Source of the DNA: Vescimonas coprocola
Lineage (GTDB): Bacteria > Bacillota > Clostridia > Oscillospirales > Oscillospiraceae
Direction of reading: 5' to 3'
Length of the DNA stretch: 64,000 bases
Assembly: GCF_018408575.1 (NCBI RefSeq)
Contig: NZ_AP023418.1
Location: forward strand, 1,454,415-1,518,414
This document shows positions 38,267 through 57,006 of the stretch, in pieces; the stretch's first letter is position 1, and every line of letters begins with the position of its first letter. The notes beneath the pieces were generated by a model. That model was given only the letters and a program-made list of their open reading frames with translations. It was not told where the DNA came from and did no database searches. Made by a program: the position numbers and the translations under genes.

Positions 38267-38299
38267 ATTATAATGTCCTTTTCTAAACTGAAACGAAAC
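38267..38299 (-). promoter_or_regulatory. Regulon promoter A (PLD operon)
   Basis: The 19-base element TTCTAAACTGAAACGAAAC is at 38281-38299 (reads GTTTCGTTTCAGTTTAGAA toward the gene). Eight bases on is a consensus TATAAT at 38267-38272. There is no separate -35 box; the element occupies its place, so an activator or sigma-contacting regulator is likely. Confidence 0.8.
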
Positions 38300-38354
38300 A
38301 AAAGGGAATTTGCTCAGGATCATAGTATTCCCGTTTGGATCTGAGAGAACGAGC

Positions 38355-38394
38355 ATAATAAAAGAACGGCGCAGCCTTTTTTCGGCTGCGCCGT
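38355..38394 (-). terminator. Terminator of cargo operon B
   Basis: ACGGCGCAGCC and GGCTGCGCCGT (38366-38394) form a perfect stem; on the minus strand it is followed by TCTTTTATTAT. Confidence 0.9.
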
Positions 38395-38417
38395 AACCAT
38401 ATCATTTGTTGAAGTGC

Positions 38418-39551
38418 TCAGTCAGATTTTTGGATGAGGTCGTTTTTCTTTAGCTTCCGCACAGCCAAACGGTGTTCAATATTCTCATGCAGTAATTGTG
38501 AGATCACCGCCATCAACGGGATAAAGAAGATGATACCTAAAACGCCAAACATCTTCCCGCCCAAAAGGACGGCGAGCAAGGTCCAAAACGGAGATAGCCC
38601 GACACTGCTTCCCACAACATGAGGGTAAATAAATTGGTTTTCAACGAACTGTGCCGCCTGATAGACGATCAGGCATAGGATCACCTTGTTTGGCTCAGCC
38701 AGCAAAGTCAGCAACATACCGATTGCACAGGACAAGAACGCTCCAATGTATGGTACAAAGGCAAAAGCTGCGGTCAAAACCGCCGTCAGCCCGGCATAAG
38801 GGATCCGGAATATAGAAAACGAAAGGAAAATCAGCGTACCAAGTATCAGCACCTCTACACATTGACCTGAAAGAAATTTGGCATAGGTATCGTGAGACAG
38901 CTTTGCGATATGGCAGACCTTATCTGCGACAGATTCTTTGCAATAAGCGTACAGCGCCCGTCTTGTTTGTTTGCCAAGTTCCTGCTTTCCAACCAGAACA
39001 TAAAACATGATCACGAGCGAAACGGCTGCGTTGACAACAGTAGATATTGTAGAGCCGGCAACACTGACAACGGAGCCTATTACTACGCCTGCTCCGTTCA
39101 TTGCCTTCTCGGCAATGGTTTTCCAATCCAACTTGTTGAGATATGCGCTGATCTCAGCGGTATCAAAGCCATAATTGCGCAGCACCGCTGCCCAGTCGGG
39201 CCACTTTTCTTTAATAAGAGAAATGATACTTTTTACGGAGGCTATGAGCTGAGGAATCGCAATGACACATAGTAGCACGATAATAGCGACTAAAAGCAAC
39301 AATGTAATAATCAAACTTAAAACATTGATTGTGCGCTCGCTTGCTTTGGGCATAAGGCGAGAAAGACGCTTGCCGATCCCGCGCATCGGAACGCTCAGGA
39401 TAAACGCCATGAGCAACCCTGCAAATACAGGGGTGAGCAATTCCGCACACACATGTAAAAAGTCCGAAATATAGTTCAAGTTGTTTAATGCTGTGAATAG
39501 AGCAACGCCGAAAGCAATCAAGCCAAGCTGTTGCTTAAATTTTTTATCCAT
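38418..39551 (-). CDS. AI-2E family transporter
   Basis: 377 residues from ATG 39549-39551 (MDKKFKQQLG); the longer frame has a Cys-rich unrelated start. Seven to eight membrane segments with the family features: paired N-terminal helices, a soluble middle helix region about 125-200, and FVPYIGAFLSCAIGMLL plus VVGSSVGLSPFWTLLAVLLGGKMFG toward the C-terminus. The family exports or moves small molecules and ions (AI-2, Na+/H+); the substrate here is open. Last gene of operon B. Confidence 0.9.
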   Translation of the reverse strand: MDKKFKQQLGLIAFGVALFTALNNLNYISDFLHVCAELLTPVFAGLLMAFILSVPMRGIGKRLSRLMPKASERTINVLSLIITLLLLVAIIVLLCVIAIPQLIASVKSIISLIKEKWPDWAAVLRNYGFDTAEISAYLNKLDWKTIAEKAMNGAGVVIGSVVSVAGSTISTVVNAAVSLVIMFYVLVGKQELGKQTRRALYAYCKESVADKVCHIAKLSHDTYAKFLSGQCVEVLILGTLIFLSFSIFRIPYAGLTAVLTAAFAFVPYIGAFLSCAIGMLLTLLAEPNKVILCLIVYQAAQFVENQFIYPHVVGSSVGLSPFWTLLAVLLGGKMFGVLGIIFFIPLMAVISQLLHENIEHRLAVRKLKKNDLIQKSD

Positions 39552-39553
39552 AT

Positions 39554-40258
39554 CTATTTCTCCACTGCAGAGGTCTGAGCTGATGCTTCTTTCTTTCCGT
39601 AACCCAGCCACCAGCCCAAAGCGCACACAGGCAATGCAGCTATGACATCCACAGCAGAATGTTGTTTCATAAAAACAGTCGAAAGGCTGATGCATACTGC
39701 GATGATGCCGAACACGATCTTCCATGCAACATTTTGAAAGCGTTTGCAATCCCACAGGGCAAACATAGCGGCAAACGAGCCGATAACATGGAGAGAAGGA
39801 CAGACATTCGTGTTGGTGTCAAATGAATAAAACCCCGTTATAAAATCAGTAAGTATATTGGGTTCATCGAAATGCTCCGGTCGTAATTCCTGGCAGGTCG
39901 GAAATACGATGTAAATAAGCAATGTGATGCCGTATGTAACGATAACAAAGTGCATCATTCTTCGGAAGGCTCTTGTGTCAAAGAAAAAGGTATAGATAAG
40001 TGCTCCGATGAGAAAAACAAACCACAGAAGATACGGGATCAGCGCCCATTCCCAGAATGGGATCAAGTCGTCCAGCGCACAGTGTACAACGTAATAATGT
40101 CTTTCCGGCTGAAACCGTTCAAGAAACATAAACATCAATCCGAAAAACGGCCAAAACAGCAGCAACTTAACATGTGAAAACTCCGGCGTATTCATTTTTT
40201 TGAAACGAAACTGGCGGTAGTCCACCTCCGGTTTGATTTTTTTCGTGCTTCTTTGCAT
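39554..40258 (-). CDS. PAP2-family phosphatase (membrane)
   Basis: About 234 residues from ATG 40256-40258 (MQRSTKKIKP); its ribosome binding site is weak and a TTG at 40288 is a possible alternative. Six membrane helices. PAP2 motifs: NVCPSLHVIGSFA about 168-180 (motif 2 with the catalytic His) and STVFMKQHSAVDV about 207-219 (motif 3). It removes phosphate from lipid phosphates such as phosphatidate or undecaprenyl pyrophosphate. Neighbours (CrtO-like acyltransferase, CDP-lipid enzymes) point to lipid turnover. Confidence 0.87.
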   Translation of the reverse strand: MQRSTKKIKPEVDYRQFRFKKMNTPEFSHVKLLLFWPFFGLMFMFLERFQPERHYYVVHCALDDLIPFWEWALIPYLLWFVFLIGALIYTFFFDTRAFRRMMHFVIVTYGITLLIYIVFPTCQELRPEHFDEPNILTDFITGFYSFDTNTNVCPSLHVIGSFAAMFALWDCKRFQNVAWKIVFGIIAVCISLSTVFMKQHSAVDVIAALPVCALGWWLGYGKKEASAQTSAVEK

Positions 40259-40303
40259 AACATTCCATCCATTCGTAACGTGCGGCAAAAGCGAGATAAG
40301 GGT

Positions 40304-40819
40304 TTACGGTGCTATCGTCGTTAGTAGCTGCTCCTCATATCGTGGTAAGTTCCGAATTTGCATATTGCGCTGTTGCTTTAAGAGTAATTTTTGTAAGCGA
40401 GGCCGGTTGAAACGCTGTACCACAATAAATGGCAAATTGCCGAGCAAAATGTAAACGGCCGTCATGCAAATACCTCCTATACCAGGCCAGAACCATAGCA
40501 TTGCAAGCCCTGCAATCGATAAGATACCGTGTGTCCACTCTGCAACACAGGTTTCTTGGATCATTCTGGGCAAATCGGAAAGCGTTTGTCGCTTTAGCTT
40601 TTTTGCCGGCATGATATTTGTAAAAATACGGCTCATATCCGGCACCTTTGCCTGCCACTGCTTCACACGCAGCGCTTTCCATATTGCTTGTTCATATGAA
40701 TAGCACCGCCACGGGAAATGATCCGCTTTGAACCAAGACTTTGGTACTAACCGTCCGACTACAAAAAACACAACACCCAAGGCCGCTATGTAAAGCAAGC
40801 AACGCAAAAAATGTTTCAT
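40304..40819 (-). CDS. Glycosyl-4,4'-diaponeurosporenoate acyltransferase-like (CrtO family) protein
   Basis: 171 residues, with membrane segments about 4-24, 100-115 and 118-135. The family signature is visible: SWFKADHFPWRCYSYEQ about 28-44, WKALRVKQWQAKVPDMS about 47-63, and the ETCVAEWTHGIL motif about 91-102 with conserved Glu and His. In staphyloxanthin synthesis CrtO adds a fatty acyl chain to a sugar. No carotenoid genes are here, so in this cargo it probably acylates another membrane glycolipid or sugar. Confidence 0.78.
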   Translation of the reverse strand: MKHFLRCLLYIAALGVVFFVVGRLVPKSWFKADHFPWRCYSYEQAIWKALRVKQWQAKVPDMSRIFTNIMPAKKLKRQTLSDLPRMIQETCVAEWTHGILSIAGLAMLWFWPGIGGICMTAVYILLGNLPFIVVQRFNRPRLQKLLLKQQRNMQIRNLPRYEEQLLTTIAP

Positions 40820-40867: not shown

Positions 40868-41470
40868 TTACTTCTGTGGCTGGCCGCTTATCGCAGCAAG
40901 AAGCATTTGGGCACATGCCTCCGTGGACACGCCGGATGTATTCAGCAGAATATCGTAATTGCTCTTATCTGCCCACTCCTTCTGTGTCCAGAAGTGGAAA
41001 TAGTTTTTCCGATCCCTATCCTTTTTCTGCATCAGATATTTTGCGTCAGTCTCCGAAACATTTTCCGTTCGGATAATGCGTTCCACCCTTTTCTCGGTAT
41101 CGGATGAATAAATAAATGATTTCAGAACACGAGGGCTTTCCCCGAGGATCACCGTGGAGCATCTGCCAATAAAAACAGCAGGGCCTTTCAGCTCGATGTT
41201 TACCATTGTCCGACGAATTCCCTCGAACAGCTCATAGACTGTGTTCTTCCGGTTACGTGCGTAGTCCGAAAAAGCAGCAATGTCATACAGAAAGCTACCT
41301 GTACGCTGCTCGTCGTAGGTTTTCAGCAGTTCGATAGATACACCCTGGGCTTCAGCGGCTTTGATCAGCAACTCACCGTCATAGTAAGGTATTCCTGCCA
41401 ATTCGGCAACACGCATACCGATCTCACGGCCGCCGCTTCCGAATTCTCTTTCGATTGCCAAGGATTTCAT
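40868..41470 (-). CDS. Cytidylate kinase-like protein
   Basis: 200 residues from ATG 41468-41470 (MKSLAIEREF) after GAAGGGAG; the longer frame runs back into the ABC gene. The P-loop is GSGGREIG at 11-18, and the kinase lid region has RKNTVYELFEGIR, FIGRCSTVIL, RVERIIRTENVSE and KKDRDRKNYFHFWTQKEW. It belongs to the Cmk-like group, not housekeeping Cmk. Its link with CdsA (which uses CTP) is notable, but the substrate is unknown. Confidence 0.85.
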   Translation of the reverse strand: MKSLAIEREFGSGGREIGMRVAELAGIPYYDGELLIKAAEAQGVSIELLKTYDEQRTGSFLYDIAAFSDYARNRKNTVYELFEGIRRTMVNIELKGPAVFIGRCSTVILGESPRVLKSFIYSSDTEKRVERIIRTENVSETDAKYLMQKKDRDRKNYFHFWTQKEWADKSNYDILLNTSGVSTEACAQMLLAAISGQPQK

Positions 41471-41489
41471 GGTTGTCTCTCCCTTCTGA

Positions 41490-43295
41490 TTAAGATGCTT
41501 TGTCAAACTGGCTGTTGTATAGGTCAGCATAGAAACCGCCCTGTGCCAGCAGTTCCTCATGCGTGCCCTGTTCGATGATGTCGCCTTCCTTCATCACAAG
41601 GATCAGGTCAGCGTTTTTAATGGTAGAAAGCCGATGAGCGATCACGAAGCTGGTTCTGTGCTCTGTCAGCGTATCCATAGCCTTCTGCGTCATCAGCTCC
41701 GTCCGTGTATCGACCGAGCTGGTCGCTTCGTCCAGGATCATCATTGGGCTGTTTTTGATCATGGCACGAGCAATGGTAAAGAGCTGCTTTTGCCCTGCGG
41801 AAATGACCACATTTTCTCCAAGCACGGTATCAAAGCCATTCGGAAGCGTCTCGATAAAGTGATAGATCCCACACGCACGGCAGGCCTTTTCAAGTTCTTC
41901 GTCCGTAACCCCTGTTTTGTTGTAAACGAGATTTTCACGCACGGTTCCGTCAAACAGCCAGGTGTCCTGCAGCACCATGCCAAACAGCTCGTGGATGTTT
42001 TCTCGTGTCAAATCGGAGGTAGAAATACCGTCAATGCGGATATCGCCGCCGACCAGATCAAAGAACCGCATCAAAAGGTTGACCATTGTTGTCTTACCGG
42101 CACCTGTAGGACCGACGATAGCGACTTTCTGCCCCGGCTTGATGTGAGCAGAAAAATCTTTGATAATGATTTTGTCCGGATTATCCGGATAGCTGAAGCG
42201 AACATGGTCGAATTCGACCTCGCCATGCACCTCGGTCAATTTCTCGGTCTTATAGCTTTCATCCGAAAGTTCTTCCTCCTGCAGGAAGTCGAATATCCGA
42301 TCTCCGGCGGCAGCTGCCGTCTGCATCTGCGTCATACCCTGTGCCAGTGTGCTGAGCGGGGAGGTAAACAAGCGGACAAACATGATAAATGCCGTGATTA
42401 CGCCAAAGGTGATCTGCCCATCCATAACCAAAGCCGCACCGATCACACAGACCGCTACATAACCGAGATTGCCGATCACATTCATCAGCGGCTGCATAAC
42501 GCCGGATAGAAACTGACTTTTCCGGTTTGCATCGTAAACCGCACGGTTCATCCCGGCAAAGTTCTTTTTGATCTCGTTGTTGGCACGGGAAATGCGTACA
42601 ACATCATGGCCGGAGTACATTTCCTCCACATAGCCGTTGAGCTTACCGAGACTCTGCTGACGGGCGACGAAGTATTTTTGAGAACGGGACATGATTACCG
42701 CCATTACAACGAATCCAATCAGCGTAATGGCGATCGCTGCAAGCGCCATTCGCCACTCCGTCACAAGCATCATAATCAGGCAGCCTACGAATTGGGCAAC
42801 TGCACTGATCATCGACGGAAGGCTGTTGGAAAGTGCCTGCTGAAGCGTGCTGACATCATTTGTCACACGGCTCAGAATATCGCCGTGCGAGATTTTCCCA
42901 AAGCACTTCATAGGGACCTTATTGATTTTATCGGAAAGATCCCGCCGCATTTTCTTGGACAGATCCAGCGTAACGGTAGCCATGATATATTGCTCAATAT
43001 ATCCGCACACTTCACCGATCAGATAGATCGCCAGCAGGACGCCTCCCACCTTTGCAACGGCAGAAAGGTCAATGCCGGTCATCAGTCCGTCTGAGATCAG
43101 ATCCGTGATACGACTAAGCTGGTTTGGCCCGATGATCGTCAAGACAGCGCCGATCATGGAAAACACAAACGCAATGATCATTGGCAGCCGCAATTTTGAA
43201 GAATAGGTAAACAGTTCTTTCAGAACGCCCTTTATTCCTCGTTTACTTTTTTCGGGCACGCCTGTTCGGCGCCCCATCATTTGATTTCCGTTCAT
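41490..43295 (-). CDS. ABC exporter half-transporter, canonical ATPase site
   Basis: 601 residues: six membrane helices about 35-320, then a nucleotide-binding domain with Walker A GPTGAGKTT about 386-394, signature ISAGQKQ, Walker B MMILDEATSS (catalytic Glu present) and an H-loop His in FVIAHRLS. Start ATG 43295 after AAGGAGG. Its partner lies 15 bases upstream. Such type IV (ABCB-like) heterodimers export drugs, peptides or lipids; the lipid-rich operon suggests a hydrophobic substrate. Confidence 0.93.
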   Translation of the reverse strand: MNGNQMMGRRTGVPEKSKRGIKGVLKELFTYSSKLRLPMIIAFVFSMIGAVLTIIGPNQLSRITDLISDGLMTGIDLSAVAKVGGVLLAIYLIGEVCGYIEQYIMATVTLDLSKKMRRDLSDKINKVPMKCFGKISHGDILSRVTNDVSTLQQALSNSLPSMISAVAQFVGCLIMMLVTEWRMALAAIAITLIGFVVMAVIMSRSQKYFVARQQSLGKLNGYVEEMYSGHDVVRISRANNEIKKNFAGMNRAVYDANRKSQFLSGVMQPLMNVIGNLGYVAVCVIGAALVMDGQITFGVITAFIMFVRLFTSPLSTLAQGMTQMQTAAAAGDRIFDFLQEEELSDESYKTEKLTEVHGEVEFDHVRFSYPDNPDKIIIKDFSAHIKPGQKVAIVGPTGAGKTTMVNLLMRFFDLVGGDIRIDGISTSDLTRENIHELFGMVLQDTWLFDGTVRENLVYNKTGVTDEELEKACRACGIYHFIETLPNGFDTVLGENVVISAGQKQLFTIARAMIKNSPMMILDEATSSVDTRTELMTQKAMDTLTEHRTSFVIAHRLSTIKNADLILVMKEGDIIEQGTHEELLAQGGFYADLYNSQFDKAS

Positions 43296-43310: not shown

Positions 43311-45071
43311 TTATGCGCCCAGTTCTTCGGCGGACAACTGCGACATGGCAATTTCTCGATAGACAGCACAATTCTTTATCAGTTCCTCATGCGTACCGAT
43401 CCCAACGGCCTTGCCTTCATCCAGAACGACGATCTTATCGGCGTTGCGGATCGTACCGATTCTCTGGGCAACGATCATGCAGGTAACGCCGCCGAGCTTT
43501 TCGGCAAGACCTTTTCGCAGCGCTGCATCGGTTTTGTAGTCCAATGCGGAGAAGGAGTCATCGAAAATCAAAATCTCGGGATTTCTCGCCAACGCACGGG
43601 CGATTGCCAAACGCTGCTTCTGTCCGCCGGAAACATTGGATCCGCCCTGTGAAATCGGTGCATCTAATTTGCCGGGCAGTTTTTCGACAAATTCACTTGC
43701 CTGGGCAAGTTCCAAGGCTTTCTGTGCGTTTTCGTCGGTAGGAACTGCGGCGCTTTCACCGAACAGCACATTATCCCGGATGTCACCGGCAAACAGAACC
43801 GCTTTCTGCGTTACATATCCGATACGGTCGTAAAGGGCGTCGAAGGTGTATTCTTTTATATCCTTTCCGTCGATCAGGACCGTGCCGGAGGTCGTGTCGT
43901 AAAAGCGAGCTGCCAGGCTGATGAGCGTTGTTTTACCGCTGCCGGTCGCACCGATAAATGCAATGGTTTCACCTTTATTCACCTTAAAGCTGATGTTTTC
44001 CAATACATCCTTATCCGAGGTGGGATAGTGGAAGGAAACATCCTTGAACTCGACTGTGCCCACTTCGGGAGCGTTGTCCGATTTTCCTTCCCGTAAGGTG
44101 ATTTTTGCATTCAGCACCTCATTGATACGCCCGGCAGAAACCTGGGCCGAAGGGAAGAACATTACAATCATGACCATCATCATAATGGACATGATGACAT
44201 AGGTTGCATAGGTGCCGAATACCATAATGTCACCGAATGTTGCGATCCTCGCTGCGACATCTGTAAGTGCGACCTTTTCCACGATAGATGCGCCTACCCA
44301 ATAGACGGTCAATGCCAAAGTATTCATAGCGAACGAGACAGCCGGCATAAGCATCGCAAATCCGTGCTGATTGAACAGCTGCGTTCTCATCAATTCGTCG
44401 TTGGCCTGCTCAAATTTTTCCGCTTGATATTTCTCGGCATTATAAGCGTGCACCACATTGATGCCCGTCAGATTTTCACGGGATACACGGTTGATGTTAT
44501 CCGTCAATTTCTGCACACGGCGGACACGCGGCACGATCACCGCAATGACGATTGCCATCATGGCAAGCAGCGCCACGACAAAGCCGGCGGTGATAACAGA
44601 CAGCGTCCAGCTTTTGTTGATGATCTTTATGACCGCCCAAATCGCCATGATCGGAGATTTGATCATAATTTGCAGGCCCATTGCCACAAGCATCTGGATC
44701 TGCGTGATGTCATTCGTCGTGCGGTTGATCAGGCTCGGAACAGAAAACTGCTGCATTTCATACTGACCGAAATCCGCCACCTGATTAAACACCTTTTCAC
44801 GGATTGTATAGCTGAAGCCTGCGGCAGTCTGCGCTGCCAAGTATCCGCAAATTACCGCAAGCAGAGCGCTTGCGAGCGTGCAGCCGAGCATTTCAAGCCC
44901 TGTTTGCCAGATGTCACTCATTGCGCTGCCAGGGGTCTTGATAAGTACTGTCAGGTCGCTCATATAGTCCGGCAGGCGCAGATCAAAATAGATCTGACCC
45001 AATACCAGAATGGCGCAAAGCCCGGCAGTCAGCCACTCCTTGCGTTTCATTTTCTTTAATAGCTCAAACAT
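43311..45071 (-). CDS. ABC exporter half-transporter, degenerate ATPase site
   Basis: 586 residues, six membrane helices about 18-300, nucleotide-binding domain with Walker A GATGSGKTT, signature VSGGQKQ and Walker B ILIFDDSFSALD. The Walker B ends in Asp-Asp, so the catalytic Glu is replaced by Asp, the mark of the degenerate half in heterodimers such as BmrCD and TM287/288. It pairs with the product of the next gene, which has the canonical site. Confidence 0.93.
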   Translation of the reverse strand: MFELLKKMKRKEWLTAGLCAILVLGQIYFDLRLPDYMSDLTVLIKTPGSAMSDIWQTGLEMLGCTLASALLAVICGYLAAQTAAGFSYTIREKVFNQVADFGQYEMQQFSVPSLINRTTNDITQIQMLVAMGLQIMIKSPIMAIWAVIKIINKSWTLSVITAGFVVALLAMMAIVIAVIVPRVRRVQKLTDNINRVSRENLTGINVVHAYNAEKYQAEKFEQANDELMRTQLFNQHGFAMLMPAVSFAMNTLALTVYWVGASIVEKVALTDVAARIATFGDIMVFGTYATYVIMSIMMMVMIVMFFPSAQVSAGRINEVLNAKITLREGKSDNAPEVGTVEFKDVSFHYPTSDKDVLENISFKVNKGETIAFIGATGSGKTTLISLAARFYDTTSGTVLIDGKDIKEYTFDALYDRIGYVTQKAVLFAGDIRDNVLFGESAAVPTDENAQKALELAQASEFVEKLPGKLDAPISQGGSNVSGGQKQRLAIARALARNPEILIFDDSFSALDYKTDAALRKGLAEKLGGVTCMIVAQRIGTIRNADKIVVLDEGKAVGIGTHEELIKNCAVYREIAMSQLSAEELGA

Positions 45072-45110: not shown

Positions 45111-45782
45111 TTAAGTTCGATACTTTGCCATCAGTTCCTTAAACAATTCCTGCGTCGAGGGCGGCGTATAGGTAATAGCGTTGGCCCCGGCCACGATTGT
45201 CTCATAGATGCTTTCGTTGGTTTTCCCACCGGATGCAACCAGCGGAACATTCGGAAACTCCGAGCGGATTTTTCGTACAACATTCGGAGTCTCTTTTCCG
45301 CAGGCGATATTTAAGATCGCAGCGCCATGCTGCAAACGGCTGGCAATGTCCGTGCCCTCATGCGTCACCGTGATAATCACCGGAATATCTACGGCGTTGC
45401 TTACAGCCAGAAGATTCAGATCGGAAATCGGTGCATTCAGCACAACTCCCATAGCACCTTGCGACTCCACGTCCTTCGCCAAGGATACCGTCCTTATTCC
45501 CTTGGTCGTCCCGCCACCAACGCCGCAGAACACCGGGATATAAGAGGAGCGAATGATTGCATCGCTGATCGCTTGCTGCGGAGTAAAGGGATAGACCGCA
45601 AACACGGCATCGGCGTCACAATTCCGAATAATTGCAAGATCGGTGGTAAAGACAAAGCTTTTGATCCTGCGTCCGTTGATGATAATTCCGCTGGCTTGGA
45701 AAACCGCCTCCGGGATCTTCAGAATATGCTGCCGCAAACGGCTGCCGATCTGAGGGATCTGCTCCTTTTTCATTTCTTCCAT
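45111..45782 (-). CDS. TIM-barrel-like protein, unknown function
   Basis: 223 residues. Alternating strands and helices with glycine-rich phosphate-type loops (CGVGGGTTKGIRT, VASGGKTNESIYETIVAGANAITYTPP) look like a TIM barrel of the HisA/HisF or PcrB style, which binds phosphorylated ligands. ACGKETP and THEGTD may form the active site. No family member with a known reaction is recognised. Located between the FtsH/DUF308 genes and the ABC pair in operon B. Confidence 0.6.
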   Translation of the reverse strand: MEEMKKEQIPQIGSRLRQHILKIPEAVFQASGIIINGRRIKSFVFTTDLAIIRNCDADAVFAVYPFTPQQAISDAIIRSSYIPVFCGVGGGTTKGIRTVSLAKDVESQGAMGVVLNAPISDLNLLAVSNAVDIPVIITVTHEGTDIASRLQHGAAILNIACGKETPNVVRKIRSEFPNVPLVASGGKTNESIYETIVAGANAITYTPPSTQELFKELMAKYRT

Positions 45783-48207: not shown

Positions 48208-48240
48208 AGTATACTGTCCATTTCTAAACTGAAACGAAAC
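48208..48240 (-). promoter_or_regulatory. Regulon promoter B (ftsH operon)
   Basis: The same 19-base element TTCTAAACTGAAACGAAAC is at 48222-48240, followed eight bases on by TATACT (48208-48213) toward ftsH. Sequence and spacing match promoter A exactly. Confidence 0.82.
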
Positions 48241-48275: not shown

Positions 48276-51200
48276 TCAGCCATCGAGACCTATGTTTTTC
48301 TTTGCTGTGGACAGCATAAGCTTGATGCGGTTCAGCTGATTGACCTCGCTGGCACCGGGGTCATAATCCACCGCAGCAATATTGCTTTGCGGGTATGCTT
48401 TTTTCAGCGCTTTGATCACGCCCTTGCCTACAACATGGTTTGGAAGACACGCAAACGGCTGAATACAAACTACATTCGGCGTGCCATGTGTGATCAGTTC
48501 GATCATTTCTCCGGCTAAGAACCACCCCTCACCGTATTGATTGCCCAAAGACAAAAAGGGTTTTGTCATTTCAGCAATCCGGTAAACAGACAATGGGGCC
48601 TCAAACCGTTTGCTTTCGTTCAGCGCATCAGTTGCCGGTTTGCGCAGAGCGGCAATCAGCCTTATTGCCGCCTTGGATACGATGACCGAAGATTTTTTGG
48701 TGCCGAGGTATTCCGCCTTGTATTGGGAGCCGAAAACACAGTAATTGAAGAAGTCCAGCAGATCCGGAACAACAACCTCGGCACCTTCCCGTTCCAGCAG
48801 TTCCACCAAGTGGTTGTTTGCCAGCGGCATATACTTCACAAGGATCTCACCGACAATGCCGACCCTCGGCTTACGGATCGTTTCATCGATGGTGAAGCTG
48901 TCAAACGCATTGACGATTCCACGGCATACTTCCTTATAGGTGTACTGCGTTTTTGAATTTATGAGTGAGTCGATGCAAATATCCTGCCACTTTTTATGGA
49001 GCGCATCGGCAGAACCGGGTATGACCTCATACGGTCGCACACGGTACAGGCAGCGCATAAAAAGATCTCCGTAGACGATCGTTTTTGCGGCATCCGTGAC
49101 TAAACCGGCGGACAGGCTGAAACCCTCATTTTTCTCCATCCCGTTGGCGTTCAGGGAAATGACCGGAATATGGGAGTATCCGGCCTTATCCAAGGCGCGG
49201 CGAATGAAGGATACATAGTTGCTGGCACGACAGCATCCGCCGGTCTGTGTCATAACGATTGCCAAACGGTCGGTATCATATTTGCCGGAAAGTACGGCAT
49301 CCATAAATTGTCCGACCACCGTAATAGAAGGATAGCAGGCATCGTTATTGACATATTTGAGTCCCATATTCACAGCACTGCGATTGTCATTGTCCAGAAC
49401 AACCAGGTTATATCCGTGCTTGCGGAACACGGGCTCCAAAATATCAAAATGGATCGGACTCATTTGCGGCGCAAGAATGGTATACCCCTTTTCCCGCATT
49501 TCTTTGGTGAACTCTGTTCGGTGATACGCCACAGGCTTTGCCGTCGCCCTGCTTTGATCCTGCTTTCGCATAGCCATAGCAGAGAGCAAGCTGCGGATTC
49601 GGATACGGACAGCGCCGAGATTGGCGACCTCGTCGATCTTCAAAAGCGTATACAGCTTGCCGGAAGCCTCCAGAATCTCGCTTACCTGATCTGTCGTTAC
49701 GGCATCAAGTCCGCATCCGAAAGAATTGAGCTGAATCATCTCCAATTTATCATGTTGGCAGACAAATTCCGCTGCATTGTACAGCCGGGAATGATATACC
49801 CACTGATCCACAACACGCAAGGGCCGGGACGGCTCAAAATCGATGGGAAGACTATCCTCAGTAAAAACCGTCAGACCGTAGGAGGCAATCAGTTCCGGGA
49901 TCCCGTGGTTGATTTCGGGGTCGATATGATACGGCCGCCCCGCCAGCACGATTCCGCACTCGCCGTTATGCTTCATCTGATTGAGCAGGCGCTTGCCTTC
50001 CGTACGAATATCTGCCTTGACCCGCTGCTGTTCTGCCCATGCCGCTTTTACTGCCGCATGCACCTCCGGTGCGGGAATATTCCATTCCTCACGGCAGAGC
50101 TTTACCATGCGGTCAGCAACCGTCTTTTCATCGGTAAACGCCATAAATGGGCGTATGTAGCGCACGGCTCCATTGGTAACGGCTTCCACATTGTTTTTGA
50201 TGTTTTCAGGATATGAAACAACAATGGGGCAATTAAAATGGTTCTGTGCTCCCAGCGTTTCCTGGTGTTCGTAGAATACGCAGGGGTGAAAGATCGTTTT
50301 GATGCCTTGGTTGATGAGCCACTGTACATGGCCGTGCGCCAGCTTTGCGGGGTAACATTCCGATTCGGATGGGATTGACTCCATCCCAAGCTCGTAGATC
50401 TTTCGGCTTGAAAAGGGGGATAAGATGACCCGGAAATGCAGCTGTTTGAAAAAGGTTGCCCAAAACGGGTAGTTTTCATATAGGTTCAGCACCCGGGGAA
50501 TACCGATCGTCCCCCGTGCGGCAGCTGACTCTGCAAGCGGCTCATAGCCAAATATGCATCGGCGCTTGAATTCAACCATATTGGGTGCAGCTTTTTTCCG
50601 CTCGGCATTGCCGACCATCTTTTCACAGCGATTTCCTGTGATGTGGCGGCGCTCTCCGTCAAAAACATTTACCGTCAGCATACAATGGTTGGCACAGCCG
50701 CCGCAGCGTCTTGTGAAAGAGGAATAGGTCAGCGCCTCGATCTGCTCCAGTGAAAGCATCTTAGTCGGTGTCGGTGCTCCGGTGTAATTGCGTCTGGCGA
50801 TCAATGCGGCACCGAAAGCACCCATCACGCCGGAAATATCCGGGCAAATCACTCCTGCACCGGCAATTTCTTCAAACGCCCGCAAGACAGCCTTGTTATG
50901 AAAAGTACCGCCCTGCACGACGATATGGCTGCCAAGCTCCTCCGCCGAGGACAGCTTGATGACCTTATACAAAGCGTTTTTGATCACGGAATAGGCAAGG
51001 CCGGCGGAAATATCCGAAACCGAGGCACCTTCTTTTTGTGCCTGCTTGACATTGGAATTCATGAAAACCGTGCACCGGGTACCGAGGTCAACCGGGTGTT
51101 CGGCAAATAGTGCGGTTTGTGCGAACTCTTCTGCAGTATATCCTAAAGAGTTTGCAAAGTTTTCAATAAAGGAACCGCAGCCAGAGGAGCAGGCTTCGTT

Positions 51201-52517
51201 AAGCATGATACTGTCCACAGCACCGTTTTTCAGACGGATACATTTCATATCCTGACCGCCAATGTCCAGCACACAGTCCACTTTTGGATCGAAGAAAGAA
51301 GCGGCCGTACAGTGAGCAATCGTTTCCACTTCTCCGTCATCCAGAGAAAAGGCAGCCTGCAGCAGTGCCTCTCCGTAGCCGGTAGAGCACGCCCGGACGA
51401 TTTTTGCATTCCCCGGCATTAGCGTTTGCAGTTCGTGGATACCCTTTTTTGCCGCCTCGATTGGGTTGCCGTTGTTGTTCGTGTAGTAAGAATACAGCAG
51501 TTCACCGTTTTCCCCGATCAGCGCCATCTTGGTTGTCGTAGAACCAGCGTCGATTCCCAGATAGCAGTTCCCTCGATAGGCGGAAAGCTCACCACGGGCA
51601 ACGGAAGCCCGAGCGTGTCTGCAGCAGAACTGCTCATATTCTGCGTGACTTTCAAATAGAGCCGGAAGCCGGGGCATTTCAAAAGAGATCGAGACGCCGT
51701 TTTTCAGACGCTCGATCAGGGTGTCGATTGGGACAGTGTCTTTTTCCGTGCTTTCCATTGCAGCGCCCATGGCGGCAAACAGATGGGAGTGATCCGGATC
51801 AACAGTCGTTTCCGCTGTCAAACCAAGAGTCCGTACAAATGCCTTTTTCAGTTCCGGCAGAAAATGCAGCGGACCTCCGAGAAATGCCACGCATCCCCGG
51901 ATCGGCTTTCCGCAGGCAAGACCGGAGATCGTCTGGTTCACGACTGCCTGAAAAATAGATGCTGCAAGGTCCGCTTTGGTTGCCCCTTCATTGATCAAGG
52001 GCTGAATATCTGTTTTCGCAAATACGCCGCAGCGTGCTGCGATCGGGTAGATCTGCTTGTACTGCTCAGCCTCTCTATTCAGTCCGGCGGCATCCGTTTG
52101 CAGCAGCGATGCCATTTGATCGATGAAAGAGCCGGTTCCGCCGGCGCAGACACCGTTCATTCGCTCCTCTAATCCGCCGGTAAAGTATATGATCTTAGCA
52201 TCCTCGCCGCCAAGTTCAATCGCCACATCCGTCTGCGGCGCACATTTTTTCAGGGCTGTAGCGACGGCAACGACCTCCTGGACAAAGGAAATATCCAACG
52301 CTTTCCCCAGATTGATCGCACCGGAGCCGGTAATGCAAACCTGCAGTTCACATTCCCCAACAGATTTCTTGGCTTCTTCCAACAAAGTGGATAGGGTTTC
52401 CTGCGTGTGGGCCTGATGCCGTCTGTATTCTCCGTAAAGGATCTCATCGGCGTCATCAAGTACCACAAGCTTTACGGTCGTGGAGCCGATGTCGATCCCG
52501 GCACGGTATTTTTTCAT
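48276..52517 (-). CDS. Acyl-CoA dehydratase activase / BadF-BadG-HgdC family protein (double ATPase plus DUF2229)
   Basis: 1413 residues. Two actin-fold ATPase domains: the first begins AGIDIGSTTVK about 6-16 with the FeS-ligating CAGGTGSF and ARCGVFAK segments, the second begins GIDAGSTTTK about 320 with CSSGCGSF and GTRCTVF. After a Cys-containing linker (CGGCANHC) comes a DUF2229/HgdB-like region from about 680 to the end. These proteins use ATP to send one low-potential electron to radical dehydratases or related enzymes. No 2-hydroxyacyl-CoA dehydratase subunits are nearby, and its job in a lipid operon is unknown. Confidence 0.88.
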   Translation of the reverse strand: MKKYRAGIDIGSTTVKLVVLDDADEILYGEYRRHQAHTQETLSTLLEEAKKSVGECELQVCITGSGAINLGKALDISFVQEVVAVATALKKCAPQTDVAIELGGEDAKIIYFTGGLEERMNGVCAGGTGSFIDQMASLLQTDAAGLNREAEQYKQIYPIAARCGVFAKTDIQPLINEGATKADLAASIFQAVVNQTISGLACGKPIRGCVAFLGGPLHFLPELKKAFVRTLGLTAETTVDPDHSHLFAAMGAAMESTEKDTVPIDTLIERLKNGVSISFEMPRLPALFESHAEYEQFCCRHARASVARGELSAYRGNCYLGIDAGSTTTKMALIGENGELLYSYYTNNNGNPIEAAKKGIHELQTLMPGNAKIVRACSTGYGEALLQAAFSLDDGEVETIAHCTAASFFDPKVDCVLDIGGQDMKCIRLKNGAVDSIMLNEACSSGCGSFIENFANSLGYTAEEFAQTALFAEHPVDLGTRCTVFMNSNVKQAQKEGASVSDISAGLAYSVIKNALYKVIKLSSAEELGSHIVVQGGTFHNKAVLRAFEEIAGAGVICPDISGVMGAFGAALIARRNYTGAPTPTKMLSLEQIEALTYSSFTRRCGGCANHCMLTVNVFDGERRHITGNRCEKMVGNAERKKAAPNMVEFKRRCIFGYEPLAESAAARGTIGIPRVLNLYENYPFWATFFKQLHFRVILSPFSSRKIYELGMESIPSESECYPAKLAHGHVQWLINQGIKTIFHPCVFYEHQETLGAQNHFNCPIVVSYPENIKNNVEAVTNGAVRYIRPFMAFTDEKTVADRMVKLCREEWNIPAPEVHAAVKAAWAEQQRVKADIRTEGKRLLNQMKHNGECGIVLAGRPYHIDPEINHGIPELIASYGLTVFTEDSLPIDFEPSRPLRVVDQWVYHSRLYNAAEFVCQHDKLEMIQLNSFGCGLDAVTTDQVSEILEASGKLYTLLKIDEVANLGAVRIRIRSLLSAMAMRKQDQSRATAKPVAYHRTEFTKEMREKGYTILAPQMSPIHFDILEPVFRKHGYNLVVLDNDNRSAVNMGLKYVNNDACYPSITVVGQFMDAVLSGKYDTDRLAIVMTQTGGCCRASNYVSFIRRALDKAGYSHIPVISLNANGMEKNEGFSLSAGLVTDAAKTIVYGDLFMRCLYRVRPYEVIPGSADALHKKWQDICIDSLINSKTQYTYKEVCRGIVNAFDSFTIDETIRKPRVGIVGEILVKYMPLANNHLVELLEREGAEVVVPDLLDFFNYCVFGSQYKAEYLGTKKSSVIVSKAAIRLIAALRKPATDALNESKRFEAPLSVYRIAEMTKPFLSLGNQYGEGWFLAGEMIELITHGTPNVVCIQPFACLPNHVVGKGVIKALKKAYPQSNIAAVDYDPGASEVNQLNRIKLMLSTAKKNIGLDG

Positions 52518-52535: not shown

Positions 52536-53348
52536 TTATAAAAAGAAGCCGCCTGCGTATGTGCAGAAAAGATAAGTAAACGGAACGGCAAATAAATGAC
52601 TGTCAAACCTGTCCAGTATACCGCCGTGTCCCGGCAGCAGATTGCCATAGTCTTTGATGCCGCAAATACGTTTGATCACTGACATAGACAGATCACCGAA
52701 CTGGCCGACAACGGAGGTCATAAGCGCCCAAAGTGCCAGCGTTCCGTAATTTACTTCAATCTTTACAAATTTCTCAACAACGATCCCGCCAAGCAGTGCC
52801 AATAGCACCCCGAACAATAGGCCGCCAAGGGAGCCTTCTATGGTCTTATTTGGGCTTACCTTCGGCATTAGCTTATGCCGTCCCAAACCTCGCCCGATCA
52901 GATAGGCGGCGACATCCGTGACAAAGCACAATGTGACAGCAAAAATCAGATAATACAGTCCGCTATTCAGGCTTCTCAGCTCCGGAATGGCTTTAAAGAG
53001 CACAATGATCAGGAGCACAATGAAAAATGCCTTGACGGGAGAGTCCAAGCTGCAATGTTTTTGCCGTATCATCAGCCAAATGGATGCTACAGTTGCAAAA
53101 ATAAATGCCACCGTCAGTACGATCTCGGAACGGGGAATGTGTACGAAAGCAGCCAAAACGGCAATGAGCATAGAAACAGTAAACATCACTTCATTTTCGA
53201 TTGTGCCGGTTGCGCGGTATATTTCATACACCGAAAAGGCGCAAAGGATGGCGGTAGCCACCAAAATGACCGCCGGTATGTAAGAATAGAATAGGATTAA
53301 GTAAACGGCGGCTGTTATAAACGCACCGGTTATCGTTCGCTTGAGTAT
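52536..53348 (-). CDS. cdsA: Phosphatidate cytidylyltransferase, start codon unusual
   Basis: Makes CDP-diacylglycerol from phosphatidate and CTP. Eight or so membrane helices; the signature near the C-terminus reads GQFGDLSMSVIKRICGIKDYGNLLPGHGGILDRFDS (family S-x8-K-R-x4-K-D-x5-PGHGG-x2-D-R-x-D). A TTG at 53262-53264 would give 242 residues but lacks the first helix. The coding frame clearly continues upstream (LKRTITGAFITAAVYLILFY) to 53348, where GAGGGG is followed seven bases later by ATA instead of ATG. Likely a rare ATA start, a base error, or a damaged gene. Confidence 0.85.
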   Translation of the reverse strand: MLKRTITGAFITAAVYLILFYSYIPAVILVATAILCAFSVYEIYRATGTIENEVMFTVSMLIAVLAAFVHIPRSEIVLTVAFIFATVASIWLMIRQKHCSLDSPVKAFFIVLLIIVLFKAIPELRSLNSGLYYLIFAVTLCFVTDVAAYLIGRGLGRHKLMPKVSPNKTIEGSLGGLLFGVLLALLGGIVVEKFVKIEVNYGTLALWALMTSVVGQFGDLSMSVIKRICGIKDYGNLLPGHGGILDRFDSHLFAVPFTYLFCTYAGGFFL

Positions 53349-53379: not shown

Positions 53380-53946
53380 TTATTTATCTTTTATACTATC
53401 GAGCAACATATTCCGTATTTCTGCGCCGATCGTATGTGTGGTTCCGTTTTCCACATCGCTTGCAGGAATCACCTGCACGATGTCCAAATATACATCGGAA
53501 TGCCGGCGTAGGACATTCTTATGGATCTGTTCCGTTCCCCTGATGGACATAACGACAATCGGTGTGCCGGCCTTTTTGGCAATGTGGAAAACACCGTCGT
53601 GAAACGGGAGCAATTCTCCGGTTTTGCTTCGGGTGCCCTCCGGATATACACCGATAGAGACCTCGCCGCTCTGAAGCAGATCAGAAGCTTTATTGATCGT
53701 CCTCAATGCCTTTCGCGGGTTCTCCCGGTCGATCGGCATAAAGCAGCATTTCCGAATAATTCGTCCGAAAAACGGAATCTTAAAATTCTCGCCTTTTGAG
53801 ATAAACGCAATATCCCACGGTTTCAGCACAAGCCACTCAATGATCGGGTCAAAATTGGAGCGATGGTTTCCGACAAACATCAGCTTTTGATTCTTAGGTA
53901 TCTTCTCCAGTCCGCTTGTATATACTCTGATTCGCAGCACCTTCAA
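53380..53946 (-). CDS. Lysophospholipid acyltransferase (PlsC family), catalytic part separated from its membrane anchor
   Basis: 188 residues from a TTG at 53944-53946. Transfers an acyl chain to 1-acylglycerol 3-phosphate. Motif I NHRSNFDP at about 27-34 (catalytic His28 and Asp33), motif II about 59-66 (FFGRIIRK), motif III YPEGTRSK at 101-108. Family members of this type start with a membrane helix and a VDPKKEYEKNSRFYR segment; here that part is in a different frame just upstream (53943-54101). The TTG overlaps the upstream stop as TTGA, so coupled translation could still make a two-piece enzyme. Confidence 0.85.
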   Translation of the reverse strand: MKVLRIRVYTSGLEKIPKNQKLMFVGNHRSNFDPIIEWLVLKPWDIAFISKGENFKIPFFGRIIRKCCFMPIDRENPRKALRTINKASDLLQSGEVSIGVYPEGTRSKTGELLPFHDGVFHIAKKAGTPIVVMSIRGTEQIHKNVLRRHSDVYLDIVQVIPASDVENGTTHTIGAEIRNMLLDSIKDK

Positions 53947-54133: not shown

Positions 54134-54688
54134 TCAGTTCGTGCGGAACAGATTCAGGTAAAACCGTATGTACAGCGTAAGGGACATAAGCATAACGCAA
54201 ATGCAAATTCCGATCAGAACATTTGCCACCGTTTCCGATATACTCGGGAACAAGATAAGGCACGTCATAACCAGATACAGAACCACGGTGTTGAGCTTGC
54301 CATACCATTTTGCGCTGTTAACAACATCTTTCTTTTGAATTGCCATATACCCGAGCACGGCCATAATGATCTCCTTGACCACAAAGAGAACAATCAATCC
54401 GCGCATCCAGCGATATTTCACCGTCAAGCAGAGGATCACCGTAGCCTGCGTCAGCTTGTCTGCCACGGGATCCAAAATCTTTCCGAGGTCTGACACCATA
54501 TTGAATTTGCGGGCGATGAATCCGTCAATAATATCCGTTGCACCGGAGATTAAAATCACAGCCACTGCAGCAGAATATTCCTGCTTTCCTATATATAGCC
54601 ACACGATCAGCGGAATCAGCGCCAAGCGTATCACACTTAATAAATTCGGTATCGTCAATACCTGATCTTTTCTGAATATCCTATGCAT
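54134..54688 (-). CDS. CDP-alcohol phosphatidyltransferase (PgsA-like)
   Basis: 184 residues from ATG 54686-54688 (MHRIFRKDQV) after GGGAGAT. Six membrane helices. The family motif is complete: Asp52, Asp55-Gly56, Ala59-Arg60, Gly69, Asp73 and Asp77 (DIIDGFIAR then GKILDPVAD). It joins a CDP-diacylglycerol lipid head to an alcohol; size and the IPNLLSVIRL start are those of phosphatidylglycerophosphate synthases. With CdsA, PlsC and the PLD-like protein it forms a path from phosphatidate to phosphatidylglycerol and cardiolipin. Confidence 0.9.
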   Translation of the reverse strand: MHRIFRKDQVLTIPNLLSVIRLALIPLIVWLYIGKQEYSAAVAVILISGATDIIDGFIARKFNMVSDLGKILDPVADKLTQATVILCLTVKYRWMRGLIVLFVVKEIIMAVLGYMAIQKKDVVNSAKWYGKLNTVVLYLVMTCLILFPSISETVANVLIGICICVMLMSLTLYIRFYLNLFRTN

Positions 54689-54741
54689 ATGTAATATCTC
54701 CCATCGGCCTGTCGCCATTATAATATCGTTTATCTTCGCAT

Positions 54742-55659
54742 TTATACAGCTGCCATTTCACTGTCCTGTTTTGCTTTTTCTGCCGGTGAAACGCATGACC
54801 GAACCGTATATTCCATGACTTCCGGTACAACTTCGCCGTCGATCTGAAGCGGTGCCGGCTCATTATATTTCACTTGAATGGTCTTTCCTTCCAGAATCGT
54901 CATCTGATTCGTATACTTCAGATGCTTGCCGCTGAAAATCGACGGAAAGATCATTAGTCCACGCAGTTTGCCGACATCGTGGAATATCAGAATGGATACC
55001 TTTCCGTCTTCACGTAATCTGTACTGCTCCGGCGTCGGCATCATACCCCCGCCATAGAACCTGCCGTTCATGACAGAGGCAAGCCACACTTTTTTATATT
55101 GATAGCGTTTGCCGTCAACAACGACGGTCACATTCTTGGGCTTATAGTGAAACAGCAACCCGGTGATGGCGATCTTCGTATAATTTACCGGCTTGGGCTT
55201 TTTCCTCTTCTTGTTTTCCTCTCGGAGCTTTTCTCCAACCTCACAACAATAACCGTCAATGCCGAAACCGACATTGTTCAGGAACAATTCAGACTTTCCT
55301 TTAACGCTTACACGAGGTAGCCGTTCAAAATATGGGTTGAGGCAAACCGTTGGATCCGAAAACGGTTTTTGCCCGACATCCCTCGCAAAATCGTTGCCGG
55401 TTCCCGTGGGGTAGTAGTAGAGCTTATTGGGAATGTTCATTCCGTTAACATCGTTGACAAAACGATTCAGGGTGCCGTCTCCGCCGCATAAGATCACAGT
55501 GTCATTCGGGTCTAATCCGTTAAAAAAAGTCTTATAACTGATGATGCGGCAAATATTGATCGCCACAGCCCCTTCATTGGCATCCTGCAAGGCTTTTACG
55601 GCTTTCTCGGTCTCCGGACCGCCTGCACAGGGATTATAAAGAATATATTTTTCAGACAT
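54742..55659 (-). CDS. Diacylglycerol kinase / lipid kinase family protein
   Basis: 305 residues from ATG 55657-55659 (MSEKYILYNP) after GAGGAGG. The catalytic glycine-rich loop GGDGTLNR is at 59-66 and the nucleotide segment PTGTGNDFARD at about 85-94, then a beta-sandwich C-terminal domain with GFGIDGYC and FYGGGMMPTPEQ. Members phosphorylate diacylglycerol or similar lipids (DgkB/YegS type). Recycling of diacylglycerol to phosphatidate would feed CdsA encoded two genes downstream. Confidence 0.9.
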   Translation of the reverse strand: MSEKYILYNPCAGGPETEKAVKALQDANEGAVAINICRIISYKTFFNGLDPNDTVILCGGDGTLNRFVNDVNGMNIPNKLYYYPTGTGNDFARDVGQKPFSDPTVCLNPYFERLPRVSVKGKSELFLNNVGFGIDGYCCEVGEKLREENKKRKKPKPVNYTKIAITGLLFHYKPKNVTVVVDGKRYQYKKVWLASVMNGRFYGGGMMPTPEQYRLREDGKVSILIFHDVGKLRGLMIFPSIFSGKHLKYTNQMTILEGKTIQVKYNEPAPLQIDGEVVPEVMEYTVRSCVSPAEKAKQDSEMAAV

Positions 55660-55704
55660 AAGTTCATTACCTCCTCGAAGCATCGTCCCTGTTCTGTAAA
55701 TTTA

Positions 55705-56106
55705 TCAGTGCGTGCTTAATGTAAACTTTGATTCTGTTCCGGCTTTCAAGCGCCTGAAGTTTTCCTTATGCCGCAGCGCCACAAAAATAACGATTGCAGC
55801 GTCTATCAAAATTACGGATACAGGTGCTTTGAACAGCAGCAGAAGCAATGGGCTGCAGAGCGTCGCAGCAACAGTAGCAAGCGACATATATTTTGTGGTA
55901 AGCAGCAGTACAACCATCATTCCGGTCACGATCAGACCGACCCGCCAGTCTGTTACCCAAATCGTTGAAAGACTGACGAGAAATCCTTTGCCGCCTTTGA
56001 AGCCGTACCAGATCGGATAGGCATGTCCAAGAACAGCAAAAAGGCCTGTATAGACAGCCCCTAACTGATAAAGCCCCAGATATTTTTCAAACAGCTTTTG
56101 AATTCT
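55705..56106 (-). pseudogene. plsY: plsY remnant (glycerol-3-phosphate acyltransferase), 5' part deleted
   Basis: The frame is open from 56106 to the stop at 55705. It encodes the C-terminal 60 percent of PlsY, including GHAYPIWYGFKGGKG with the GGKG acyl-phosphate loop, and later membrane helices. The N-terminal part with the GSGNxGATN motif is missing and there is no start codon. The upstream sequence runs into a degV fragment in another frame, so a deletion fused the two genes near 56,090. Confidence 0.8.
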
Positions 56107-56315
56107 TCAACGGAAACCTGCGCTGTCGTGATACGCTTTCCGCCACGGATCGTCTCGTAAAGTCTGTGTGCTTCTGCGGGTGTCCATGTGAGAAGCGCCG
56201 GAGACTCTTTGCCATCCTCGATCGTGGACATTCTGGCGTAGTCGATGTCGTATTTTTCGAGTTGCTCTGCGCTCAGGTCTGCGCAGGAATCGGTGATGAT
56301 CTTAACTTTTCTCAT
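56061..56315 (-). pseudogene. degV remnant (fatty-acid-binding DegV family), 3' part deleted
   Basis: Starts properly (ATG 56313-56315, AAGGAG upstream) with KIITDSCADLSAEQLEKYDI and RITTAQVSVEEF, the N-terminal DegV (FakB) domain. After about 75 residues the frame enters plsY sequence and stops at 56061. DegV/FakB proteins bind fatty acids and present them to a kinase, which then supplies PlsY with acyl phosphate, so the intact pair would have made sense here. Confidence 0.8.
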
Positions 56316-56364
56316 GGTAAAAACTCCTTTTTATGTAATGAATCTTTGAAATGCTGCTTGCCGG

Positions 56365-56877
56365 TTAGAAAGAATCAAGCTTTTCCCGGATAAACCTCAC
56401 TGCGTTTTCCGCATCCGTTTCATCGGGATGCCCCTCGGACAATTTTGCCTCGGAGATCATTTTTTTGATGGCAGGATCGTCTGGTTGCTGTGCGAACTGT
56501 CTTTGGATTTTGCTCAGCACCTCCTCCGCTATCTGACCTCGACACAGCAAAATGCCGCAATAGTCGCATTCGTCCGGCAGAAAAGGTTCGATCTTGCGCT
56601 CGATAAGCCGCTTGTATTCCTCACTTGGCTCTATGCCGCAGGTCACAAACAGGAATATCTTCTTTCCGGCCAGCCGGTCCAATGCGTCCATGACTTTTAG
56701 CGGGACTGTACCGTTGTTTATGCCGAATCCTACTAAATACACATCGGCCGCAAGGGTAACTTCTTCCTCTTGCAGGTTCGTCAAAAAAGCTTGATTTTCC
56801 GGAAGACGCTTTGCAATGCCGTATGCCAGCTTTTCTGTATTGCCTGATAAACTGTAATAGGCTATTTCATAGTTCAA
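56365..56877 (-). CDS. Flavodoxin-family protein
   Basis: 170 residues from a TTG at 56875-56877 (MNYEIAYYSLSGNTEKLA), eight bases after AAGGGAG; longer frames lack a binding site. The FMN phosphate loop is YSLSGNTEK about 7-15, and FGINNGTVPLK and VTCGIEPSEEY mark the two isoalloxazine loops. It likely carries electrons between enzymes. First gene of cargo operon C behind promoter C1. A possible electron donor to the activase or to a fatty-acid enzyme encoded in the same regulon. Confidence 0.8.
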   Translation of the reverse strand: MNYEIAYYSLSGNTEKLAYGIAKRLPENQAFLTNLQEEEVTLAADVYLVGFGINNGTVPLKVMDALDRLAGKKIFLFVTCGIEPSEEYKRLIERKIEPFLPDECDYCGILLCRGQIAEEVLSKIQRQFAQQPDDPAIKKMISEAKLSEGHPDETDAENAVRFIREKLDSF

Positions 56878-56923
56878 GTCTGTCACTCCCTTAAAAACCG
56901 TTATTTCGACATTTTCTGCGGAG

Positions 56924-56956
56924 AGTGTAGCAAGCAATTCTAAACTGAAACGAAAC
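56924..56956 (-). promoter_or_regulatory. Regulon promoter C1 (flavodoxin-lipid operon)
   Basis: The 19-base element TTCTAAACTGAAACGAAAC is at 56938-56956, followed eight bases on by TACACT (56924-56929). Same layout as promoters A and B. Confidence 0.8.
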
Positions 56957-56973
56957 TGCCCGGATTTTCAAAA

Positions 56974-57006
56974 GTTTCGTTTCAGTTTAGAATTTGAATA
57001 TACGAT
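56974..57006 (+). promoter_or_regulatory. Regulon promoter C2 (oleate hydratase remnant)
   Basis: The element in opposite orientation, GTTTCGTTTCAGTTTAGAA, is at 56974-56992, with TACGAT at 57001-57006 after exactly eight bases. With C1 it forms a 19-base inverted repeat around a 17-base centre, a divergent promoter pair. Confidence 0.75.

Follow-up and report, generated by a model that had tools for sequence, protein, structure and literature searches.

We analysed a 64,000-nucleotide stretch of the Vescimonas coprocola genome (contig NZ_AP023418.1, positions 1,454,415 to 1,518,414; hereafter the window), in which one 19-base promoter element stands at four sites in front of genes for membrane and lipid functions. 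The element is real and, in relatives, accompanies one sensor–regulator pair and membrane-lipid genes; it therefore very probably marks the targets of the two-component system formed by this pair, a response regulator (58415..59089, plus strand) and a histidine kinase (59086..60153, plus strand). Both the regulon and its putative controller are well supported by comparison. We consider it highly likely that the 58415 regulator, once phosphorylated by the 59086 kinase, would activate the element promoters and so drive a membrane-remodelling programme, where binding, activation, and signal are inferred.

The four 19-mers located by a preliminary description of the window are all exact at the positions it gave. 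Only 0.01 copies are expected and none of 100 shuffles reached four, which rules out a chance origin. A scan of the whole 2.56 Mb genome at ≤3 mismatches returned these four copies only, and a reversed control pattern had no match in the same scan. The −10 hexamers TATAAT, TATACT, TACACT, and TACGAT lie exactly 8 bases off the 19-mer in four of four cases, as had been proposed, and since they lie on its TTCT-end side, the element reads GTTTCGTTTCAGTTTAGAA in operon sense and the complete unit GTTTCGTTTCAGTTTAGAA-N8-(−10). Three of the operons run on the minus strand and one on the plus strand. Site 1 (38267..38299, minus, GTTTCGTTTCAGTTTAGAA-N8-TATAAT) is upstream of the PLD operon, site 2 (48208..48240, minus, exact element-N8-TATACT) of the FtsH/ABC exporter operon, site 3 (56924..56956, minus, exact element-N8-TACACT) of the flavodoxin/phospholipid/plasmalogen-synthase-like operon, and site 4 (56974..57006, plus, exact element-N8-TACGAT) of a 5′-truncated oleate hydratase gene.

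The earlier claim that no separate −35 box exists also holds, since at spacings of 16–18 the top match to TTGACA is 3/6 in each of the four sites. Inside the element lies an 11-bp tandem repeat with half-sites GTTT(C/A)G and GTTTAG, and the motif compared with itself gives a peak at shift 11 (mean column identity 0.83), followed by shift 5 (0.76). The distance to the −10 box was determined for 37 distinct sites from the window and relatives, chosen at ≤3 mismatches regardless of their −10: at spacing 8, 29 of them show a match of at least 4/6 to TATAAT, and none of 12 other spacings tested gives more than 7. A missing −35 box combined with a fixed distance to the −10 box is the usual picture for activator-dependent promoters.

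We propose that the 19-mer and its −10 box constitute an activator-dependent promoter, in which the head-to-tail half-sites, 11 bp apart, would occupy the −35 position, with 10 bases between the second half-site and the −10 box. The kinase, sensing the membrane itself, would phosphorylate the 58415 product, which would dock on the half-sites as a tandem dimer and recruit RNA polymerase. The predicted output consists of fatty-acid activation, phosphatidic acid and CDP-diacylglycerol synthesis, PG- and PLD-type enzymes, lipid or drug export, and FtsH quality control, probably joined by plasmalogen synthesis in some members, and the regulator would control itself through a weaker fifth copy. The same regulator and sites could also serve repression, with the protein blocking the promoters until a membrane signal frees them: protein bound to the element, which overlaps the −35 position, could block polymerase, and repressors exist in the family too. 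The absence of any −35-like hexamer better than 3/6 in the four window sites and the fixed N8 to the −10 box speak against repression, which we regard as unlikely.

The proposed controller belongs to the OmpR/PhoB family and combines a receiver domain (PF00072, Response_reg, 3.5e-32) with a winged-helix domain (PF00486, Trans_reg_C, 4.4e-18). Its receiver signature residues D8, D9, D10, D52, and K102 are invariant across six aligned sequences, so that the phospho-acceptor is kept. Among the best 25 of 99 NCBIfam families scored, it stays below the equivalog cut-offs of MtrA (183.5 vs 300), PhoB (181 vs 296.2), YycF (163.4 vs 340), and VanR-F/M (154.7 vs 460). The kinase shows two membrane segments separated by a very short loop by hydropathy, and a crude hydropathy analysis of the hydrophobic N-termini of 30 kinases gives two segments with a short gap in 27 and one merged segment in 3. 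Such kinases are termed intramembrane-sensing (PMC5083920). The 59086 kinase, nearly devoid of an outer loop, probably senses the condition of the membrane itself.

We determined the co-occurrence of regulator and element in 300 genomes of the same family, including the window's own genome. Orthologs of 58415 (at least 68% identity) occur in 18 of these genomes, the promoter form (element, N8, and −10 at ≤3 mismatches) in 16, the reversed control pattern in 2, and the bare element (≤2 mismatches) in 18. The promoter form is present in 14 of the 18 ortholog-bearing genomes vs 2 of the 282 others (Fisher 9e-19; 1e-17 with the own genome removed), so that the co-occurrence test proposed in the preliminary description points to 58415. 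The bare element is found in 13 of 18 vs 5 of 282, and a tally of the same lists by genus gives the promoter form in 12 of 14 genera with an ortholog. Two genomes carry the promoter form without the ortholog: G142, which is 67% complete and congeneric with the ortholog-bearing G062, and G265, where the form, at 3 mismatches, is perhaps a chance match. The element was found in none of the five other sampled members of the same genus.

Loci from named genomes, of which the best 80 of 575 were used, give a similar picture. At 14 loci with 61–80% identical regulators, 13 sites (≤3 mismatches) occur in 225 kb, four of them from L097, a repeat of L044; at the 66 loci with more distant regulators, no such site occurs in 1118 kb. 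A leave-one-locus-out matrix, with L044 and L097 omitted as repeats of the L043 region, detects a site in 27 of 30 loci whose regulator is about 64% identical or more. The site adjoins the regulator–kinase pair in 24 of these 30 loci and lies upstream of the regulator itself in 17. For loci with more distant regulators, any site is seen in 9 of 77. Five of these nine are Bacilli (L112, L116, L118, L119, and L156) with 43–47% identical regulators, and their weaker cousin site lies upstream of the regulator or of an ABC-transporter operon that extends into the regulator gene, a hint of an older tie between this regulator line and ABC transporters. In a tree of 68 response regulators (the 30 close ones and 38 of the more distant ones, with seven weak-site rows kept as their own group), site-bearing regulators cluster, requiring 4 changes vs a shuffled mean of 20.9, and none of 500 shuffles was as low. 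The segment TGWETVTVH(I/V)GRLR is near-constant in the closest orthologs; in L077–L079 and L102, where it is altered, the top sites score just 13.7–24.9. A single regulon under an OmpR-type activator, as originally suggested, with 58415 as controller, is thus the reading that the comparative evidence favours.

A matrix derived from 27 foreign sites yields scores of 41.6, 40.9, 38.7, and 36.7 for sites 1–4, 22.4 for a fifth, degenerate site, and 9.6 for the next best position of the window. The training sites were picked by ≤3 mismatches to the window 19-mer and a −10 match of at least 3/6, so that sites 1–4 score high by construction and only site 5 is an independent find. It differs from the 19-mer by 6 mismatches, and the top matrix score in 40 simulated 64-kb sequences was 11.4. 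Site 5 (58351..58383, plus, GTTTATTTTCAGTTGATTT-N8-TATTCT) lies immediately upstream of the response regulator gene, and the regulator therefore probably controls its own gene through this weaker copy, as the 17 of 30 loci in relatives likewise suggest. Just 5′ of site 5, an open reading frame of 62 amino acids (58162–58350) has its own good promoter (TTGACA-17-TAAAAT) and, judged by eye, an excisionase-type DNA-binding look.

A site of its own is also what the regulator–kinase pair would carry if it were merely a target and another regulator, TetR-type or the atypical regulator at 31582, bound the element. The genome holds 12 TetR-type genes, and an open reading frame about 1.6 kb beyond the end of the window, outside these 12, has first residues that look TetR-like by eye. 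For TetR proteins an inverted repeat is usual; a tandem-repeat site located beside a response regulator in relatives makes such a protein fit poorly, and the 58415 pair stays next to the sites while other targets vary. The preliminary description had listed the 31582 regulator among the possible controllers; its relatives (E up to 1e-30) are found in just 2 other genomes of the 300, neither of which carries the element, and we reject it in this role. Control by another regulator is on these grounds improbable. Recognition of the element by an alternative sigma factor, with the element as an unusual −35, is scarcely credible. The strict distance to the −10 would fit it, yet the −10 follows the ordinary TATAAT pattern, for a −35 the element is long and contains a repeat, and its occurrence follows that of a response regulator.

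Site 1 is followed on the minus strand by a PLD-domain protein (36852..38240, PF13091, perhaps of cardiolipin-synthase type) and an alpha/beta hydrolase (35787..36776), of which a 48% identical relative occurs in the gene run behind a site in L043. Behind site 2, again on the minus strand, the operon starts with the FtsH protease (46346..48175), followed by a DUF308 membrane protein (45798..46349) and a conserved protein of unknown function (45111..45782) with weak family matches and a 73% identical copy in the post-site run of L059. It continues with an MsbA-like ABC exporter half A (43311..45071; relatives after sites in L053 and L091), exporter half B (41490..43295), a cytidylate-kinase-like protein (40868..41560), a CrtO-like acyltransferase (40304..40819), a PAP2 phosphatase (39554..40288), and, as its last gene, an AI-2E-family transporter (38418..39755), 3′ of which a terminator-like structure (38366..38394, minus; 11-pair stem and T run) ends the operon.

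The site 3 operon, also on the minus strand, begins with a flavodoxin (56365..56877, PF12641; start TTG 56877 or ATG 56870), a longer version of which overlaps the site 3 promoter. Its second position is taken by a DegV 5′ remnant and a PlsY 3′ remnant fused in different frames (55684..56315); we take both DegV and PlsY to be members of the fatty-acid activation route. A diacylglycerol kinase (54742..55683; 51% and 43% identical relatives after sites in L043 and L099), a PgsA-type CDP-alcohol phosphatidyltransferase (54134..54718), a PlsC-type acyltransferase (53380..53946), and a CdsA-type cytidylyltransferase (52536..53264) follow, and the last gene encodes a plasmalogen-synthase-like activase/reductase of 1413 amino acids (48276..52517). 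On the plus strand, site 4 precedes the 3′ half of an oleate hydratase (57016..58005; profile positions 253–495 of 495), which begins 10 bases after the −10 box. With 436.9 vs 567 bits over positions 274–576 of 577 it stays below the curated full-length cut-off; a full-length copy is present elsewhere in the genome (G000:C1:134373), where a TetR gene lies some 0.7 kb away, and the truncated gene is likely a deletion scar.

A second terminator-like structure (58022..58060, plus; 16-pair stem and T run) separates the site 4 unit from the regulator–kinase pair, which has its own fifth site, and the statement that every operon between 31.5 and 58 kb starts at one of the four elements consequently needs correction. 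The genes at 31582–35290 had been counted as part of the regulon as well; they lie 496 bases past the alpha/beta hydrolase gene, the last of the site 1 operon, and are at most putative members. Terminator and gap together reduce the supposed extent of 26 kb to about 22 kb (35.8–58.0 kb). The 31582–35290 block beside the regulon encodes a DUF1538 protein, a P-II-like protein, a zinc peptidase, and the regulator with a weak receiver match.

The scan covered some of the genes that follow sites. Among relatives, FakA follows sites in L094 and L096, in L094 as a run of FakA, a PlsX-type protein, and a DegV protein; DegV further occurs in L051 and L100, acyltransferases in L045, L046, and L055, diacylglycerol kinase in L043 and L099, and ABC exporter pairs in L053 and L091. 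The sites of L091 also precede FtsH with flavodoxin as well as PgsA-type and CdsA-type enzymes, and L059 combines a CrtO-like protein with an MGDG-synthase-like/PAP2 protein. In the window as in relatives, most targets are genes for fatty-acid activation and phospholipid synthesis, PLD-type and plasmalogen-synthase-like proteins, FtsH, and ABC exporters.

Several observations weigh against control of a membrane-lipid regulon by the 58415 system. (i) At 3 mismatches, 4 of the 18 ortholog-bearing genomes (G046, G062, G257, and G263) lack the promoter form; in three of them weaker matrix sites adjoin the response regulator (L076, L067, and L077). (ii) No site was found in 3 of the 30 close-ortholog loci despite an intact recognition segment (L092, L095, and L066, the last with a record of only 3.7 kb), and further intact-segment orthologs have weak sites alone (L072 15.8, L067 14.7, and L098 14.0). 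(iii) Near-copies among the rows (G217/G258; L097 as a record of L044) mean that the counts overstate independence. (iv) The strong self-similarity of the motif at shift 5 (0.76) leaves the half-site pitch resting partly on knowledge of the protein family. (v) Target sets vary widely between relatives and include non-lipid genes, namely RelA/SpoT-type (L091), radical SAM (L043), and HlyD-type (L054), and the sites L047:11095 and L048:14133, from two congeneric genomes with a shared site and −10, face no clear gene; a small RNA or small gene may perhaps lie downstream.

The 1413-residue protein is the sole open reading frame with DUF2229 found in the genome and combines this domain with two BcrAD_BadFG stretches; DUF2229 also matches in 4 of 14 control genomes, including Lactococcus lactis. 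By domain make-up, this layout fits the single-frame plasmalogen synthases described in PMC12838417; activase and reductase regions in one open reading frame are reported for facultative anaerobes. In the window, the gene lies on the same strand as site 3, which sits 4.4 kb 5′. A 73% identical relative (a partial gene) is found behind a site in L056 and another behind a weaker site in L100, here with a flavodoxin whose start is about 47 bases past the −10. At 29 loci with relatives, taken from 215 genomes with a match to the protein, no site was found within ≤1.5 kb of the gene, a distance at which window site 3 would also escape, so that this negative says little on longer operons; one of these loci (G061) has the regulator. 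This enzyme is likely under such control in some members. Only tentatively, with the balance somewhat against it, do we suggest that an intramembrane-sensing two-component system may read the lipid state of the membrane and jointly switch fatty-acid activation, phospholipid and PLD-type enzymes, plasmalogen synthesis with its own flavodoxin donor, FtsH, and lipid export. If true, the system would be a candidate for the control of plasmalogen synthesis in strict anaerobes; plasmalogen genes are widespread in anaerobes. Literature searches for plasmalogen with two-component regulation, histidine kinase, Clostridium, or regulon returned nothing on this system by title.

The lipid block, which may be cargo of a mobile element, is bordered by mobile-element genes on both sides. 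A tyrosine integrase gene directly follows guaA, accompanied by YqaJ, RecD2, YodL, PcfJ, ligase, and actin-like genes (12515–31000), and MobA/MobL lies at 62121–62984. A search of the window and the 60 kb past it for a second attachment site, as a repeat of the guaA tail, gave no convincing one, with a longest match of 15 bases.

The machine itself is of the ordinary OmpR/PhoB two-component kind, and its target set is apparently undescribed. Literature searches for GTTTCGTTTC with response regulator returned plant work only; those combining two-component systems and Ruminococcaceae with phospholipid, FtsH, and ABC transporter contained none on this system by title among the 10 of 34 listed, and those for fatty acid kinase with two-component systems in Clostridi- found none. 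The regulator–kinase pair, the 33-base promoter signature, and the target list bring a test of membrane-lipid gene control within reach of a single purified protein and the five sites.

The clostridial systems HexRK and DraRS (Clostridioides difficile) are not known to share the target genes described here. Their likeness lies in two-component control of genes protecting membrane or envelope (PMC10128005, PMC10601699). EF1326 of Enterococcus, a TetR/AcrR-like regulator encoded upstream of the plasmalogen synthase gene, shares the tie to plasmalogen synthesis and differs in not being two-component; the review notes that strict anaerobes lack the TetR-like regulator of facultative ones (PMC9702350).

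Further known systems that resemble this one are the PhoP and PHO boxes of the OmpR/PhoB family, GlnR, and SaeRS. Like the element described here, PhoP and PHO boxes replace the −35; their target genes differ. Solved-structure matches of the 58415 DNA-binding part are headed by 8hih, 8hml, and 8hig, which we take to be GlnR, a regulator for which we know of no partner kinase. The E. coli PhoP box TGTTTA-n5-TGTTTA and the Streptomyces PHO box of 11-bp repeats (PMC9019756) share the tandem half-sites of 11-bp pitch, and the GTTTA core found here is near the E. coli box; relative to PhoB, 58415 falls below the curated cut-off given above. GlnR of actinomycetes binds head-to-tail to boxes t/gTAAC-n6-Gc/aAAC, which resemble TAAAC-n6-GAAAC on the other strand of the element, and activates itself in mycobacteria; it differs in its nitrogen regulon and in the four boxes per promoter of the reviewed structure (PMC10704036).

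The likeness in working principle extends to SaeRS of Staphylococcus aureus, whose two-helix kinase with a predicted 9-residue linker is classed as intramembrane-sensing (PMC5083920). SaeR recognizes a direct repeat of 11-bp pitch, GTTAA-N6-GTTAA, and SaeRS activates one of its own promoters (PMC5083920, PMC5539427). The likeness comprises the short-linker kinase build, the 11-bp direct repeat, and self-activation, which is predicted here; the letters differ at the same pitch (GTTT(C/A)-N6-GTTTA), and SaeRS controls virulence factors, whereas the genes here are those of lipid synthesis. Matched against the 58415 DNA-binding part, SaeR reaches 46.4 bits vs 69.5 for 8hih, so that other solved structures are nearer, and we reject membership in SaeRS or PhoB on the structure-match scores and the NCBIfam cut-offs. 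SaeRS activity depends on fatty acid kinase, in whose absence fatty acids depress it (PMC5539427). The shared loop-less kinase, 11-bp repeat, and link to fatty acid kinase suggest, by analogy, that membrane fatty-acid sensing by kinases of this type may extend beyond staphylococci.

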